From: Bacillota bacterium
Lineage (GTDB): Bacteria; Bacillota; Sulfobacillia; Sulfobacillales; JAIMBI01
DNA length: 47,758 bases
Reading direction: 5' to 3'
Assembly (NCBI GenBank): GCA_021846565.1
Contig: JAJZWS010000021.1
Span: forward strand, 1-47,758
Position 1 is the stretch's first letter, and every line of letters begins with the position of its first letter. This document shows positions 37,861 through 47,719 of the stretch, piece by piece. The notes beneath the pieces were generated by a model, which saw nothing but the letters and a program-made list of their open reading frames with translations, did not search any database and had not been told where the DNA came from. A program made the translations under genes and the position numbers.

Positions 37861-37892
37861 TTGCCAGGCGGGGACGGCAGGCGGACAATAAT
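37861..37892 (+). promoter_or_regulatory. possible flagellin promoter
   Basis: TTGCCA (37861-37866) and ACAATA (37885-37890) are 18 bases apart, a weak vegetative-type promoter. I could not find the TAAA...GCCGATAA flagellar sigma pattern expected for flagellin genes at a useful position. The leader that would follow holds two hairpins. Confidence 0.3.
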
Positions 37893-37962
37893 CCTGCGAG
37901 TTGCAGGCGCCCAAGGAAGGGCGCCACACGCGCACCAAATATCTCGCAATCTCAAGGAGGAG
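37893..37962 (+). promoter_or_regulatory. flagellin leader with CsrA-type binding sites
   Basis: Hairpin 1 is CCTGC/GCAGG (37893-37907); hairpin 2 is GGCGCCC/GGGCGCC (37906-37925, perfect seven pairs) with loop AAGGAA showing GGA. A second GGA-bearing sequence, CAAGGAGGAG (37953-37962), is the ribosome binding site itself. One GGA in a hairpin loop plus one on the ribosome site is the layout by which CsrA blocks flagellin translation in Bacillus. csrA and fliW are encoded 4-5 kb downstream. The two hairpins share two bases, so only one can form fully at a time. Confidence 0.6.
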
Positions 37963-37969
37963 ATTTCGC

Positions 37970-39154
37970 GTGATCATCAACACCAACATTCCGGCGCTCT
38001 TAGCGATGAATGCGCTGGATGGCACCGAAACCGCGACCCAAAACGTGTTGCAGCAGTTGTCCACCGGGTACCGCATCACGTCGGCGGCCACCGACCCGGC
38101 GGGTCTGGCGATTGCGACGGGCATGAACGCCCAGGTGGGCGGGTTGAACCAAGCGTATTCGAACGCCCAATCGGCCAATTCGATGTTGCAGACCGCCGAA
38201 GGCGGAATCGGGCAGGATCAGCAGATCCTGCAGCAGATTCGATCGCTGGCTGTGGAGGCGTCCAACGGCACCATGACCACGACCGATCGGACGAACATCC
38301 AGTCGGAAATCAACCAGCTGATTCAGCAGGTGAACGACAACGCCAAAAACACGGTGTTCAACAACAAGCAGCTGCTGAACGGCACCTACTCGCAGCTCAC
38401 GGCCACCACGGCCAGCTCCAGCATCGCGGTGACGGTGGGGAGCGACACCAGCCAGGTGAGCACGGGCGCGGCCGGCACCTACACGGTCGCCTTCAGTTCG
38501 TCGTCCGGATCCAATGGCCAGGTGACCGATGTGGCCAAGCTGGAGTTTGGCGGCAACACGGTGGCCACCGCCACCTTGACCAACCTCACCAACTCGACGT
38601 CGAGCCTGGTGTTCCAGTTCGTCGGCGCTAACGTGAGCGGCAGTGCGCTGTCGTTCAACGTGTCCACGTCAGCGGCGGAAGCCACCACGTCGGGTGCCAC
38701 CGCCACCTTCACGGTGGCATCGGACGCGAGCATCTCCAACGTGTTGTCGTTCCAGGTGGGGTCCAACCAGGGCGGCTCCAACGAGCTGAACGTGACGCTG
38801 GGCAACATGAGCGCGCAGAACCTGGGACTGCAGGACGCGGCGGGCACCAATATGGATGTGTCGAGCTCGGCGGCGGCGGCGCAGAACGCCATTACCATCG
38901 TCACCAACGCGATCAACATGCAGAGCACGGCACGATCCAGCGTGGGGGCGTACGAGAATCAGCTGTCGTACACCATGTCGAACCTGCAGACCGAGTCCAC
39001 CAACCTGAACTCAGCGCAGAGCAACATCATGGACGTCAATATGGCGCAGGCCATGACGTCGTTCACGAAGGACCAGGTGCTGGCGCAGAGCGGGGCAGCG
39101 ATGCTGTCGCAGGCGCAGGCCTTGCCGGACCTGATTCTGAAGATCCTGGGTTAG
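37970..39154 (+). CDS. hag: flagellin
   Basis: Filament subunit of 394 residues. The N-terminal D0/D1 part starts MIINTNIPALLAMNALDG and has QQLSTGYRITSAATDPAGLA and AEGGIGQDQQILQQIRSLA; the C-terminal D0 part ends AQSGAAMLSQAQALPDLILK. The middle (about 140-280) is a Ser/Thr/Val-rich surface domain of about 140 residues that could accept O-linked sugars. The GTG at 37970 has aaggagg nine bases upstream and leads straight into the flagellin consensus. The gene is flanked by its own leader and by a terminator, so it is probably a single-gene transcript. Confidence 0.96.
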   Translation: MIINTNIPALLAMNALDGTETATQNVLQQLSTGYRITSAATDPAGLAIATGMNAQVGGLNQAYSNAQSANSMLQTAEGGIGQDQQILQQIRSLAVEASNGTMTTTDRTNIQSEINQLIQQVNDNAKNTVFNNKQLLNGTYSQLTATTASSSIAVTVGSDTSQVSTGAAGTYTVAFSSSSGSNGQVTDVAKLEFGGNTVATATLTNLTNSTSSLVFQFVGANVSGSALSFNVSTSAAEATTSGATATFTVASDASISNVLSFQVGSNQGGSNELNVTLGNMSAQNLGLQDAAGTNMDVSSSAAAAQNAITIVTNAINMQSTARSSVGAYENQLSYTMSNLQTESTNLNSAQSNIMDVNMAQAMTSFTKDQVLAQSGAAMLSQAQALPDLILKILG

Positions 39155-39217: not shown

Positions 39218-40591
39218 ATGTCCACCGTCTCCATCGGCAACCTGTACTCTGGCGGGGTGAACTTCAACGGCCTGATTCAAACACTGGTGGCCCAGCAGAG
39301 TGCGCCCATCACACAACTCAACCAGCAGATTCAGGGCTGGGCCCAGGATCAGAGCGTGTGGCAGGCCCTGGCAAGCCAGATGACCACCTTGGAATCGGCC
39401 GCCGCCACCTTGTCCAGCAGCGCGACCTTCCAACAGACGGGCGCGGTCAGCACCAACAGCGGCGTGGTGGTGGCGGCGGCTGACAGTTCGGCGCATCCCG
39501 GCACCTATTTGGTCAATGTGACCCAGCTCATGCAGACGGAACTGGATTTGGGTACAGTCAAAGAGTCGTCGTCGACCGGAAGCCTAGGGCTCTCGGGGCA
39601 GTTTACGATTGCGCTGGGCAGCGGCAACTGGACGGTATCGGTCACGTCGGGGGAGTCTCTGCTCCAGGTGGCCAGCAGCATCGACAACACACCCGGTATT
39701 GGCGTCGTTGCCTCGGTGGTGAACGACCAACTGGCCATCCAGGGCGACAATGGCAATGGCATCACGTATTCGGACCCCAGTGGGGTGCTCACCGCCTTGG
39801 GGATTCTCTCGTCGCGCACCGCCACGACCGCCAGCGATGTGGTGCAGGCCGCCCACTACTCGGCGTATTCCATTGACGGGGTGAGCCTCACGAACCCCAC
39901 CAACACCGACACCACGACAGTCCCGGGGATGAGCTTTCAATTCAACGGCGTGGGGAGCGGCGTGGTGACGGTCTCCACCAGTACGGCGGCCATTGCCGCC
40001 GACATCAAAAAATTTGTGGGCGCGTACAATGCGCTCCAGCAAACCATTAACAAGGACACCGCCAAGGGCGGAGTGCTCCAGGGCCAGGCGTCGCTGACGA
40101 CCTTGGAGGACCAATTGGCGCAGGTGGCCACCTCCATAGTGTCGGGTCTCACGGGATCGACCTATCAGGACCTGCCCAATATCGGCATCACGCTCACGAG
40201 CAGCGGTACCATGACTCTCAACACCACGACCTTGGACCAGGCGCTGTCGGCGAGCGCCAGCGGGGTGGCGGCCGTGTTTGACCAGGTAGGGGCCGGCATC
40301 GCGGTCCAACTCCACAATTTGGGTCAACAGTACACCCAGACGACGACGGGCATCATCCCGTCCATCGTGTCGGGCTACGCCGGGCAGATGCAGGTGGCCA
40401 ATGCCGAGGTAAGTCAGCTGCAGCAGCAGCTCACGCTGTACCAGCAGCAGCTTCAACAGGAATTTCTGGCGACCCAGGAAATGATCGCGCAGCTGGACGG
40501 CAACACCACGCTGTTGAACAGCCTCACCAGCGCGTCGACGGCTGCCGGAACCGGCGTGGCGACGGTGTCGAACACCAGCGGCGCGCTTTAG
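39218..40591 (+). CDS. fliD: flagellar filament cap protein FliD
   Basis: FliD caps the filament and folds incoming flagellin. The protein has 457 residues. The N-terminal part has the FliD opening pattern: YSGGVNFNGLIQTLVAQQSA and PITQLNQQIQGWAQDQSVWQ. The C-terminal half has FVGAYNALQQTINKD and a long Gln-rich coiled coil (VSQLQQQLTLYQQQLQQEF) near the end, which forms the leg helices. The ribosome site ggggggagg precedes the ATG. Confidence 0.93.
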   Translation: MSTVSIGNLYSGGVNFNGLIQTLVAQQSAPITQLNQQIQGWAQDQSVWQALASQMTTLESAAATLSSSATFQQTGAVSTNSGVVVAAADSSAHPGTYLVNVTQLMQTELDLGTVKESSSTGSLGLSGQFTIALGSGNWTVSVTSGESLLQVASSIDNTPGIGVVASVVNDQLAIQGDNGNGITYSDPSGVLTALGILSSRTATTASDVVQAAHYSAYSIDGVSLTNPTNTDTTTVPGMSFQFNGVGSGVVTVSTSTAAIAADIKKFVGAYNALQQTINKDTAKGGVLQGQASLTTLEDQLAQVATSIVSGLTGSTYQDLPNIGITLTSSGTMTLNTTTLDQALSASASGVAAVFDQVGAGIAVQLHNLGQQYTQTTTGIIPSIVSGYAGQMQVANAEVSQLQQQLTLYQQQLQQEFLATQEMIAQLDGNTTLLNSLTSASTAAGTGVATVSNTSGAL

Positions 40592-42418: not shown

Positions 42419-42779
42419 GGATCTGGCCGCGCTGGTGGAGGAAGAGGCGCCCGAGGCGGGGGTTCCCGTGCGGCCGGTGGAATTTGCTGAGCTGGACGCG
42501 GGCCCGCGGACCCCGGCCCGGGGAAGCGCGGCGGCGCTGGGGTTCATTCTGGACGTGCCGCTGGAGGTGCAGGTGGTGCTGGGCAGCACCCGCCTGCCCG
42601 TGCGGCAGGTGCTGGAGTTGGGACCGGGCGCCGTGGTGGAGCTGGACAAGGCCTACGCCGATCCGGTGGATGTGTATTTGAACGGGCGCTTGGTGGCGCA
42701 TGGGGAAGTGGTGGTGGCGGGCGAAAATTTCGGGGTAAAGATTACAGAGATTTTCTCGGAGGCGTTGGACGGGGAGTAG
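42387..42779 (+). CDS. fliN: flagellar motor switch protein FliN
   Basis: FliN completes the C-ring and docks FliH. The 130-residue protein has a charged, disordered N-terminus (to about 48) and one SpoA domain: [60 protein letters not shown] followed by ITEI. It is the single-domain type, not the phosphatase-bearing FliY. The GTG at 42387 has gaaggaggacgg upstream. The 3' end overlaps the convergent csrA by 38 bases. Confidence 0.95.
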
Positions 42780-43020
42780 GCGGATCGGCGGACGCATCGG
42801 ATCGGCGGCTCAAGTCCGGCAGTGCGTCCGGAGCCGGCGGCGCGGCCGCGTCCCGGTTGGCTTGCGTTGCGAGCCAGATTTCTTCGCGCAAGACGCCGAC
42901 CGATCGCGGGGCGTCAATGCCCAAGCGGACCTGGTCGCCGCTGACTTCGAGCACCCGCACCACGACCGCGTCGTCCCCGATCACCAAAGCCTCCCCGCGT
43001 TTACGTGTCAGCACCAGCAC
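42742..43020 (-). CDS. csrA: RNA-binding translational regulator CsrA
   Basis: CsrA binds GGA sites near ribosome sites and blocks translation; its main known Firmicutes target is flagellin. The first 55 residues are the complete CsrA fold: [15 protein letters not shown] (read from GTG), [33 protein letters not shown] tail of about 37 residues rich in Pro, Arg, Ala, Asp and Ser follows, making 92 in all, longer than usual. The start GTG at 43020 has aaggagaggggg upstream and overlaps fliW by 20 bases. Last gene of the minus-strand operon. Confidence 0.93.
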
Positions 43021-43471
43021 GGCCAGGCCCCCTCTCCTTGTTGTTGGCCTCGCCATGGGGCTCCGCGGTGGGCGGGGACAGCGGGTGGTGGAACGGATAC
43101 GGCAGCGACAGCACAATCTGCCCCCCCTGCCGGGTTCGCCGGTTGATGACCAATGGGCTTCTTAGGTTGGCGGACCGCTCGGTCGGGGTGATGGTGCACA
43201 GAACCAGCACCGCCCATTCGTCGGGAGGTCCCCAGAGAGCTCCCTCCTCGGGCGGCACCTCGTAGTCCGGCACCAGCACCAAGGGATCCAAGGCCGCAAA
43301 CGCCAGCGTCGGGATGTCCGCGGACTGCAGGTACAGAAAGGGGGAGCCGCCCCCCGCGGGCAACAGCACGAAGTGCCGTTGCTCGGGAAACCCCAGGATT
43401 GCCTCGGTCAGCGTGATGAGTCGGTCGTCGTCCACGGCAAGCGTACCCCAGTGCCGGGTCACCAGCTGCAA
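43001..43471 (-). CDS. fliW: flagellar assembly factor FliW
   Basis: FliW binds either flagellin or CsrA; free flagellin pulls it away, so CsrA represses flagellin when filament growth stops. The 156-residue protein has [20 protein letters not shown] (family form I.F..Gl.GFe...f.L.), then [20 protein letters not shown] and [20 protein letters not shown] (family nltAPlviN). The start is TTG at 43471 with aaggaggg upstream, a rare start that may keep FliW level low. The tail past 140 is polar. Confidence 0.94.
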
Positions 43472-43504: not shown

Positions 43505-44374
43505 TCAGGGTTTTAAGAAACTCAGCAGCGACAACGGCAGGATCTGCGCGCCGCTCTGCAGGGCTGCCTGATACACCTGCTCTTCCTGGGCTAAAAGGGT
43601 GGTCACGTTGGCCATGTTGGCGCCCTCCGTGGTGCTGAGATTTTGCTTCAGCGTGCTGGAGAGCGTCGTCAGCTGGGATGCCTGCTGGTTCACCAAGTCG
43701 AGCCGCGACCCCACACTGGCGCGGACGTTGGATACCTGGGTGAGGTCGTTCTGGAGGATGGGAATCATGGACTGCACCTGGGTCGAGCCGCTGGAGAGCG
43801 CGGTCGACAGCGAGCGCAGGTCCGCCAGCAGGCGGGGAAACAGGGTGGCACCGTCGACATTGACGGCCACGGTCGTGTTGGACCCAATCTGGAACGTGAT
43901 GGCCGCGTTGTTGCCGCTCCAGGTGCCCGTCGCGGTGTTGAGCGGCGCGGTTTGGTTGTTGGTGCCGGCAAAGAGATACCCGCCATTGAACTGGGTGTTC
44001 GCGATCCCCTGGATTCCGGTGATGGCCGCGTTGACCGTCTTGATGAGGGCCGCCTCGTCGGTCGGCGTCTGGGTGGCATTGGCGCCTTGGACGGCTGTGG
44101 ACTGCATCTGGATCATGAGCTGCTGCACTTCGGCCAAGGCGGCATCGGCAGCGTTCAGCTGCGACGAGGCGCTCTGTCCCGCGGCCTGATACTGTTGCAC
44201 CAACGCCAGGCTGTTGGTGAGCGACAGACTCTGGGCCACGCGACCGGGGTGGTCGCTCGGCACCTGAAACGCTTGGCCCGTCGCGGCTTCCTCCTGCAGC
44301 GTGGCCAACCGCTGCTCCGTATTGTTGAGGGCGGTCAGGAGATTCTGCGACACGATTTCCGGTGTGATGCGCAT
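43505..44374 (-). CDS. flgL: hook-filament junction protein FlgL
   Basis: Second junction protein between hook and filament, flagellin-like at both ends; 289 residues. It begins MRITPEIVSQNLLTALNNTE, then QVPSDHPGRVAQSLSLTNSL (a variant of the flagellin sequence around the asp-pro motif). The C-terminus has LSTTEGANMANVTTLLAQEE and QVYQAALQSGAQIL. The ATG at 44374 has aaaggag eight bases upstream; a GTG nine bases earlier lies too close to this site. Confidence 0.93.
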   Translation of the reverse strand: MRITPEIVSQNLLTALNNTEQRLATLQEEAATGQAFQVPSDHPGRVAQSLSLTNSLALVQQYQAAGQSASSQLNAADAALAEVQQLMIQMQSTAVQGANATQTPTDEAALIKTVNAAITGIQGIANTQFNGGYLFAGTNNQTAPLNTATGTWSGNNAAITFQIGSNTTVAVNVDGATLFPRLLADLRSLSTALSSGSTQVQSMIPILQNDLTQVSNVRASVGSRLDLVNQQASQLTTLSSTLKQNLSTTEGANMANVTTLLAQEEQVYQAALQSGAQILPLSLLSFLKP

Positions 44375-44408
44375 CGACGGCACTCCTTTCGTTGTCCGGG
44401 CGCCAAAC

Positions 44409-45827
44409 TTAGCCGACGGCGGCTAATAGTGCACTCATCGTGGACTGCTCGGTGGTGATGACCTGCACCGCGGCCCGGTAGCTTTGTTCCTCCTGAATCA
44501 GGTTGACCGACGCCTGGTCGGGATTCACGCCCACCTGGCTCTGCAGGGCGGCATTCAGGTCCGAGAGGGTGTTGGACGCCGTGGTGCTGCGCGTGGACGC
44601 GCTTTGTCCATCGAGGCCCACCTGGTTGACCAGGCTGGTCCAGTAGCTCGCGAGCGTCGACGTCGTGCCCCCCAGCGCTAGGGATGCCTGAGCGACATCG
44701 GCGATGGCCAGCGCATTTTGGCCATTGCCCGGCGACGAGGGGGCCGAGGAAGCCGCCACTAGGTCCGGCTGGGCCACGAGCGCGGCATTGACTCCGAGAC
44801 CCCCGGCCCCCAGCCCGGCGTTGGTGAAAAAGGGTATGCCGGTGGGCGTCGTCCCGTTCAAACCGTAGCCGGTGGCTTGCAGGGCATTGACGGCATTGGC
44901 GAGGCCGGTGGCAAGCGTGTTGAGTCGCGCCAGATAGGTGGGAATGTCACCGACGAGGATGCCGCCCTGGCTCACGCCGCGCACTGCGAGCGTGCCGTAC
45001 AGCGTACCGGACGACAGCTGGGGCACCGCGCCATTTTGAAAAACCACGTCATGCACCCCCGTGGCCGGGTTGAACCGTGCGGTCAGTGCATAAGTGGTGT
45101 GGTTCAGCACCAGCGCCTGGTTGCCCAGATACACGTCCACTGAGTTGTTCGGGTTGACGGCGTAGCTGATGTTCGCAATCTTGGCCAACTGGTTTAAGAT
45201 TTCCCCACGCTGGTTCAATAAGTCGTTCGGAGTGGCGCCCGTGCCGGTCGCGGCCGCAATGGACTGGTTGAGCGTGGCCAGCTGGGACGCCAGCTGATTC
45301 ACCTGGGCCACCTGGGTGGTCACCGACTGGTCCAGGTTGCTCTCGGCGTTGACCAGCTGCTGCGCCAGCCCCTGAAAATTGCTGACCAGCTGCTGGGCCT
45401 GACCGACAAGCGCGGTGCGGGCCGGTAGGTTGGCGGGGTTTTGGGATACGGTCTGCCACGCGCCGAAAAAGCTATTCATGGCTTCGGCCAACCCCGTCGA
45501 CGACGGTTCGGCAAACAGCGGCTGCAGTTGCGCCAGCGCCGTGTTGATGGCCGACCATGCGCCGGCCTGACTCGTCTGGGCGCGCACGGACCGCGACAAA
45601 AAAGCATTGGACACGCGATTCACCTGGGAAACGGTGACGCCCTGACCCACATAGTTGGGCTGGCTGCCTGTTCCGGGCAGCAACACCGGCGGCGGGTCGG
45701 TCAGTACCACCTGCTGCCGCTGATAGCCGGGCGTGGTCACATTGGCCAGGTTCTGTCCGGTGATGTCCATGGCCAGCTGCTGGGCCGCCAGCGCCCGGGC
45801 CCCAATGTTTAGCATCACAAACGCCAT
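44409..45827 (-). CDS. flgK: hook-filament junction protein FlgK
   Basis: First junction protein, 472 residues. N-terminal: LNIGARALAAQQLAMDITGQ then NLANVTTPGYQRQQV, the axial motif. Long helical part (TALAQLQPLFAEPSSTGLAE; NSFFGAWQTVSQNPANLPAR) and the C-terminal SVNLIQEEQSYRAAVQVITT. Shorter than the enterobacterial type because the surface domain is small. The ATG at 45827 has gaggcaggcgg upstream and lies 34 bases after flgN. Confidence 0.95.
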   Translation of the reverse strand: MAFVMLNIGARALAAQQLAMDITGQNLANVTTPGYQRQQVVLTDPPPVLLPGTGSQPNYVGQGVTVSQVNRVSNAFLSRSVRAQTSQAGAWSAINTALAQLQPLFAEPSSTGLAEAMNSFFGAWQTVSQNPANLPARTALVGQAQQLVSNFQGLAQQLVNAESNLDQSVTTQVAQVNQLASQLATLNQSIAAATGTGATPNDLLNQRGEILNQLAKIANISYAVNPNNSVDVYLGNQALVLNHTTYALTARFNPATGVHDVVFQNGAVPQLSSGTLYGTLAVRGVSQGGILVGDIPTYLARLNTLATGLANAVNALQATGYGLNGTTPTGIPFFTNAGLGAGGLGVNAALVAQPDLVAASSAPSSPGNGQNALAIADVAQASLALGGTTSTLASYWTSLVNQVGLDGQSASTRSTTASNTLSDLNAALQSQVGVNPDQASVNLIQEEQSYRAAVQVITTEQSTMSALLAAVG

Positions 45828-45861
45828 GGTTCCGCCTGCCTCTCTAAACCCAGCGAAGCCC

Positions 45862-47638: not shown

Positions 47639-47719
<81 letters not shown>

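Follow-up and report, generated by a model that had tools for sequence, protein, structure and literature searches.

The 5' leader of the flagellin gene in the window (the whole 47,758-nt stretch analyzed here) is very probably controlled by a CsrA-FliW-flagellin partner switch. This reading is well supported by the anatomy of the leader hairpins, their rarity in the genome, the neighboring csrA and fliW genes, the split of hairpin-bearing leaders across the phylum, and covariation of the stem. The circuit itself is already known, and one of this kind stops bacteria making filament protein too early; the leader described here is a well-supported candidate for a new case of it. What is added to the known circuit is that the leader element is spread across the phylum, that it is lost jointly with csrA and fliW, and that it has no match in Rfam. 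In the literature outside subscription journals, no paper was found reporting a phylum-wide leader element or its joint loss for this phylum. A search of the window against Rfam matched only a tRNA gene (positions 47639 to 47712, forward strand), and 19 related leaders gave no match.

Hairpin anatomy of the flagellin leader

The flagellin gene (37970 to 39154, forward strand) starts with GTG and encodes 394 amino acids (Pfam Flagellin_N, 3.9e-34; Flagellin_C, 1.2e-19). It is followed on the same strand by the filament cap gene fliD (39218 to 40591; Pfam FliD_N and FliD_C). A sigma-70-like promoter (TTGCCA-17-GACAAT) was placed by consensus scan at 37861 to 37889 on the forward strand, and its GGACAAT was invariant in four congeners and one other family. 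Judged from the position of this promoter, the flagellin transcript probably starts near 37896, which would make the leader about 74 nt long.

Two hairpins with ANGGAN loops, the CsrA/RsmE hexaloop, were found on the forward strand of this leader. Hairpin 1, the upstream candidate CsrA site (37906 to 37925), consists of seven Watson-Crick pairs (GGCGCCC with GGGCGCC) closing the hexaloop AAGGAA (37913 to 37918), as an earlier note on this DNA had described. The same note had correctly placed the ribosome site, CAAGGAGGAG (37953 to 37962), about 40 bases later, the distance from GGA to GGA being 41 nt; it had taken this site as plain sequence, but a second perfect hairpin in fact displays the site in its hexaloop. 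Hairpin 2 (37945 to 37970), the candidate CsrA site on the ribosome site, has a core of six perfect pairs (AATCTC-AAGGAG-GAGATT, 37948 to 37965; hexaloop, 37954 to 37959) and three further pairs (CGC with GCG) past a 2-nt bulge (TC). The Shine-Dalgarno sequence GGAGGAG (37956 to 37962) stands 7 nt ahead of the start codon. Both hairpins appeared in the minimum-free-energy fold of the leader (-34.9 kcal/mol; z = -2.7), and as stable a fold was reached by 3 of 200 dinucleotide shuffles. The GGA was predicted to be unpaired in both loops.

The rarity of such structures was assessed in the window together with 12 further stretches of this genome (206 kb; 411,202 strand-bases). This sample contained 1,032 ANGGAN words, and those closed by Watson-Crick pairs numbered 6 with at least four pairs, 3 with at least five, and 2 with at least six. 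The last two were hairpins 1 and 2; the paired hexaloops in the flagellin leader are not a product of chance. No further copy of the hairpin 2 sequence was found in the genome within three mismatches.

Hairpin 2 was unchanged in four genomes of the genus. In G002, hairpin 1 carried the genus's one compensatory pair (GGCGTCC/GGACGCC); in G003 it had one internal mismatch, and in G001 an outer pair was missing. The invariance of hairpin 2, and its pairing of part of the Shine-Dalgarno flank and of the first base of the start codon, would also fit a leader in which hairpin 2 regulates alone, as a heat-labile or other protein-free structure that limits ribosome access and in which the GGA loops are incidental. 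This explanation was considered quite improbable, given that the AAGGAG of the ribosome site was predicted to be unpaired in the loop (probability approximately 0.97 to 1.0 in three congeners and 0.65 to 1.0 in the fourth), that hairpin 1 has no contact with the ribosome site, and that the signature tracks csrA and fliW.

The earlier note had further read two overlapping hairpins as a possible structural switch. The overlapping hairpin does exist (CCTGC-GAGTT-GCAGG, 37893 to 37907) and shares two bases with hairpin 1 in this genome; a further possible pairing is that of TGCGAG with CTCGCA, which precedes hairpin 2. A two-state switch would have hairpin 1 compete with 37893 to 37907, or hairpin 2 compete with the lower arm of hairpin 1. 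The switch was nevertheless rejected as unsupported because CCTGC/GCAGG was broken in all three other genomes of the genus, and the genus consensus fold held hairpins 1 and 2 at once, with a lower stem below hairpin 1; a two-state leader is therefore very improbable.

Neighboring csrA and fliW genes

The earlier note had reported csrA and fliW nearby, and both were located 4 to 5 kb downstream of the flagellin gene, on the opposite strand of the same cluster. They lie downstream of flgK (44409 to 45857, reverse strand; Pfam FlgK_D1, 3.1e-57) and of a flgL-like hook-filament junction gene, named from gene order, that stands upstream of fliW (43505 to 44383, reverse strand; Pfam Flagellin_N, 2e-17). 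The csrA gene (42742 to 43020, reverse strand) is single-copy in the genome, starts with GTG, and encodes 92 amino acids (Pfam CsrA, 2.7e-20), with a tail past the core that may correspond to the C-terminal extension contacted by FliW; its best solved relative was 5dmb chain D, to which the alignment reaches residue 71. This match supports the CsrA identity independently of a comparison with other CsrA sequences, in which equivalents of L4, R6, and R44 were found to be retained. These three are RNA-binding residues of CsrA.

The fliW gene (43001 to 43471, reverse strand; Pfam FliW, 2.2e-22) encodes the CsrA antagonist, with solved relatives 2aj7 and then 5dmb, 5dmd, and 5jak; the matched chains of the latter three are named FliW. 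CsrA and FliW here are similar to their counterparts in the solved CsrA-FliW complex. The csrA start lies inside the last fliW codons (20-nt overlap, 43001 to 43020, reverse strand), an arrangement suggesting that translation of the repressor is coupled to that of its antagonist. One extra residue (IGDDAVVV, 42960 to 42990, reverse strand) was observed in CsrA here and in one congener (L058) and was lacking in another (L059).

Distribution across the phylum and stem covariation

Flagellin leaders were gathered at the genus, family, order, class, and phylum levels, with csrA and fliW scored in the same genomes and start codons taken from reading frames. An upstream hairpin was defined as an ANGGAN or AGGAN loop on a perfect stem of at least three pairs, with its GGA at -75 to -26. 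Such hairpins were present in 83 of 95 leaders from genomes with csrA, leaving about one in eight of these leaders without one under this rule, and in 1 of 19 from genomes lacking csrA (Fisher's exact test, P = 3.6e-12); many of the genomes are metagenome assemblies in which a missing csrA may in some cases reflect a gap, although fliW, when searched, gave no match in the csrA-lacking genomes used either. With at least four pairs, the split was 74 of 95 versus 0 of 19, and the latter count was also 0 of 19 at thresholds of five and six pairs. Dinucleotide-shuffled leaders carried the hairpin at rates of 3.5% (at least three pairs) and 1.3% (at least four pairs). The three-pair rule was a single relaxation, chosen after seeing data from an earlier, stricter rule (at least five pairs; loop of 5 to 7 nt). 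The stricter rule gave a weaker split (30 of 41 versus 2 of 9 and, in another set, 24 of 57 versus 1 of 12) because many leaders have just three or four pairs and, in the first set, also because two genomes, 61% and 90% complete, probably miss csrA through assembly gaps. For that incompleteness, these two genomes, which have the hairpin and no csrA match, were left out as ambiguous.

Leaders inside one family are not independent, and each family was therefore also given one vote: the hairpin was found in 42 of 52 families with csrA and 1 of 14 without (P = 6e-7, with families treated as independent). Five families (f1, f3, f37, f43, and f50) hold both states, and the contrast was repeated inside each of them, leader by leader; one of the two csrA-lacking leaders of f43 keeps a three-pair remnant. 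The ANGGAG ribosome site was directly preceded by C in 85 of 91 leaders with csrA versus 1 of the 11 csrA-lacking leaders that have ANGGAN there.

Stem conservation with compensating changes, a check proposed in the earlier note, was examined in one leader per family (44 families), with the GGA nearest -37 chosen blind to its flanks. Stem pairs 2 to 7 were Watson-Crick in 41, 38, 33, 25, 31, and 22 of the 44 families (permutation means, 20.8, 15.1, 12.5, 9.7, 10.8, and 10.6), each count exceeding all 2,000 permutations, and all four pair types were found at each position. Covariation was thus strong across families, in addition to the single compensatory pair within the genus. The stem drifts around an unchanging loop, the pattern expected of a loop read by a protein.

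The constant loop also bears on the possibility that hairpin 1 is merely a stabilizer of the 5' end of the messenger or the terminator of the upstream fliL-like gene, roles that would suit its high stability (predicted, -15.2 kcal/mol) and its place near the putative 5' end. Under either role the stem would not be expected to change freely around a loop that stays ANGGAN or AGGAN, nor the hairpin to be absent in csrA-lacking genomes, as in the counts above. Moreover, no U tract follows hairpin 1, and the terminator reading was rejected on a scan that found no terminator on the forward strand. Both roles are hardly credible.

Proposed mechanism and related leaders

That CsrA binds this leader and represses translation, and that FliW acts in the CsrA-FliW-flagellin partner switch, is proposed by analogy with Bacillus subtilis (PMC7652899), Clostridioides difficile (PMC8523840), and Campylobacter jejuni (PMC4894983), where the same parts occur. 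One CsrA dimer would place one face on the GGA of hairpin 1 and the other on the GGA of hairpin 2, which belongs to the Shine-Dalgarno sequence, and the bridging of both loops would block ribosomes. While the hook is unfinished, unsecreted flagellin would occupy FliW, leaving CsrA available for repression; export of flagellin would then release FliW, which would take CsrA off the leader, and translation would start. A single CsrA dimer bridges sites 10 to 63 nt apart (PMC7652899), a range that includes both the 41-nt spacing here and the phylum median of 23 nt. Several findings count against the partner switch: the spacing (38 to 41 nt within the genus) exceeds the phylum median; most selected CsrA hairpins have no more than four pairs (PMC7652899), and hairpin 1 greatly surpasses them in stability; hairpin 1 is mismatched in G003; and about one in eight leaders from genomes with csrA lacks the upstream hairpin under the rule applied.

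The closest known design is the flaA leader of C. jejuni, in which two stem-loops display ANGGA, the downstream one at the ribosome site, and for which compensatory changes and footprints have been reported (PMC4894983). The paired stem-loops and their arrangement, the compensatory stem changes, and the presence of csrA and fliW are common to both systems. The spacing is 21 nt in flaA versus 41 nt here, csrA and fliW are not adjacent in C. jejuni and overlap here, and CsrA binding has been shown for flaA, whereas the present leader is known from sequence. The earlier note had likened the locus to the CsrA-FliW-Hag circuit of Bacillus; the hexaloops, the tracking of csrA and fliW, and the covariation favor a CsrA-FliW-flagellin circuit, but its layout is nearer to that of flaA. 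The B. subtilis hag leader likewise has two CsrA sites (predicted here), the second over the Shine-Dalgarno sequence, with fliW and csrA in the flagellar cluster (PMC7652899, PMC8523840). Its BS1 (51 to 55) and BS2 (75 to 82) (PMC8523840) are approximately 24 nt apart versus 41 nt here, and the hag ribosome site, unlike the one here, is not reported to have a six-pair hairpin of its own. The C. difficile fliC leader accompanies fliW and csrA and has a BS1 (TGACAAGGATGT) and a BS2 (CTAAGGAGGG) that are predicted only (PMC8523840), and T, not C, precedes the AAGGAG of its ribosome site.

These comparisons extend a mechanism from a few model bacteria to an uncultured lineage and, by comparison, across its phylum, where leader sequence alone would then predict whether a flagellin is CsrA-controlled. 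Loss of csrA and fliW along with the leader hairpin, seen in several families, supports the published view that CsrA's old job was to time flagellar assembly, not to control carbon storage. We tentatively propose, as plausible although short of probable, that a flagellin-leader element without an Rfam family (a C-ANGGAN-G hairpin and a C-ANGGAG ribosome site) is ancestral to the whole phylum and was lost together with csrA and fliW, with flagellin control as the founding job of CsrA there, and that in this genus the two-hexaloop leader might additionally serve as a sponge for CsrA, in the manner of Campylobacter flaA.

Several leader variants were observed in the comparison set. A flagellin type starting MYLNTNMSAL (G005 L018, G018 L048, and the second flagellin of G026, L041) had neither the hairpin nor C-ANGGAG; csrA and fliW were absent from two of these three genomes and divergent in the third, which carries a hairpin only before another flagellin. 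Three class-level leaders from genomes with csrA (L014, L021, and L027) had no upstream hairpin by the rule and held the ribosome site in its own ANGGAG hexaloop of 6 to 8 pairs, a pattern hinting that the two hairpins may stand in for each other. Leaders of family f3 (L034, L037, L042, L044, L047, and others) presented ACAGGATGT in a pentaloop hairpin approximately 35 to 40 nt before the flagellin start, a loop nearly identical to the SELEX consensus of Escherichia coli CsrA. Genus g7 of the same family had, instead of the pentaloop, a hexaloop closed by G-C (tttcg-ANGGAN-cgaaa).
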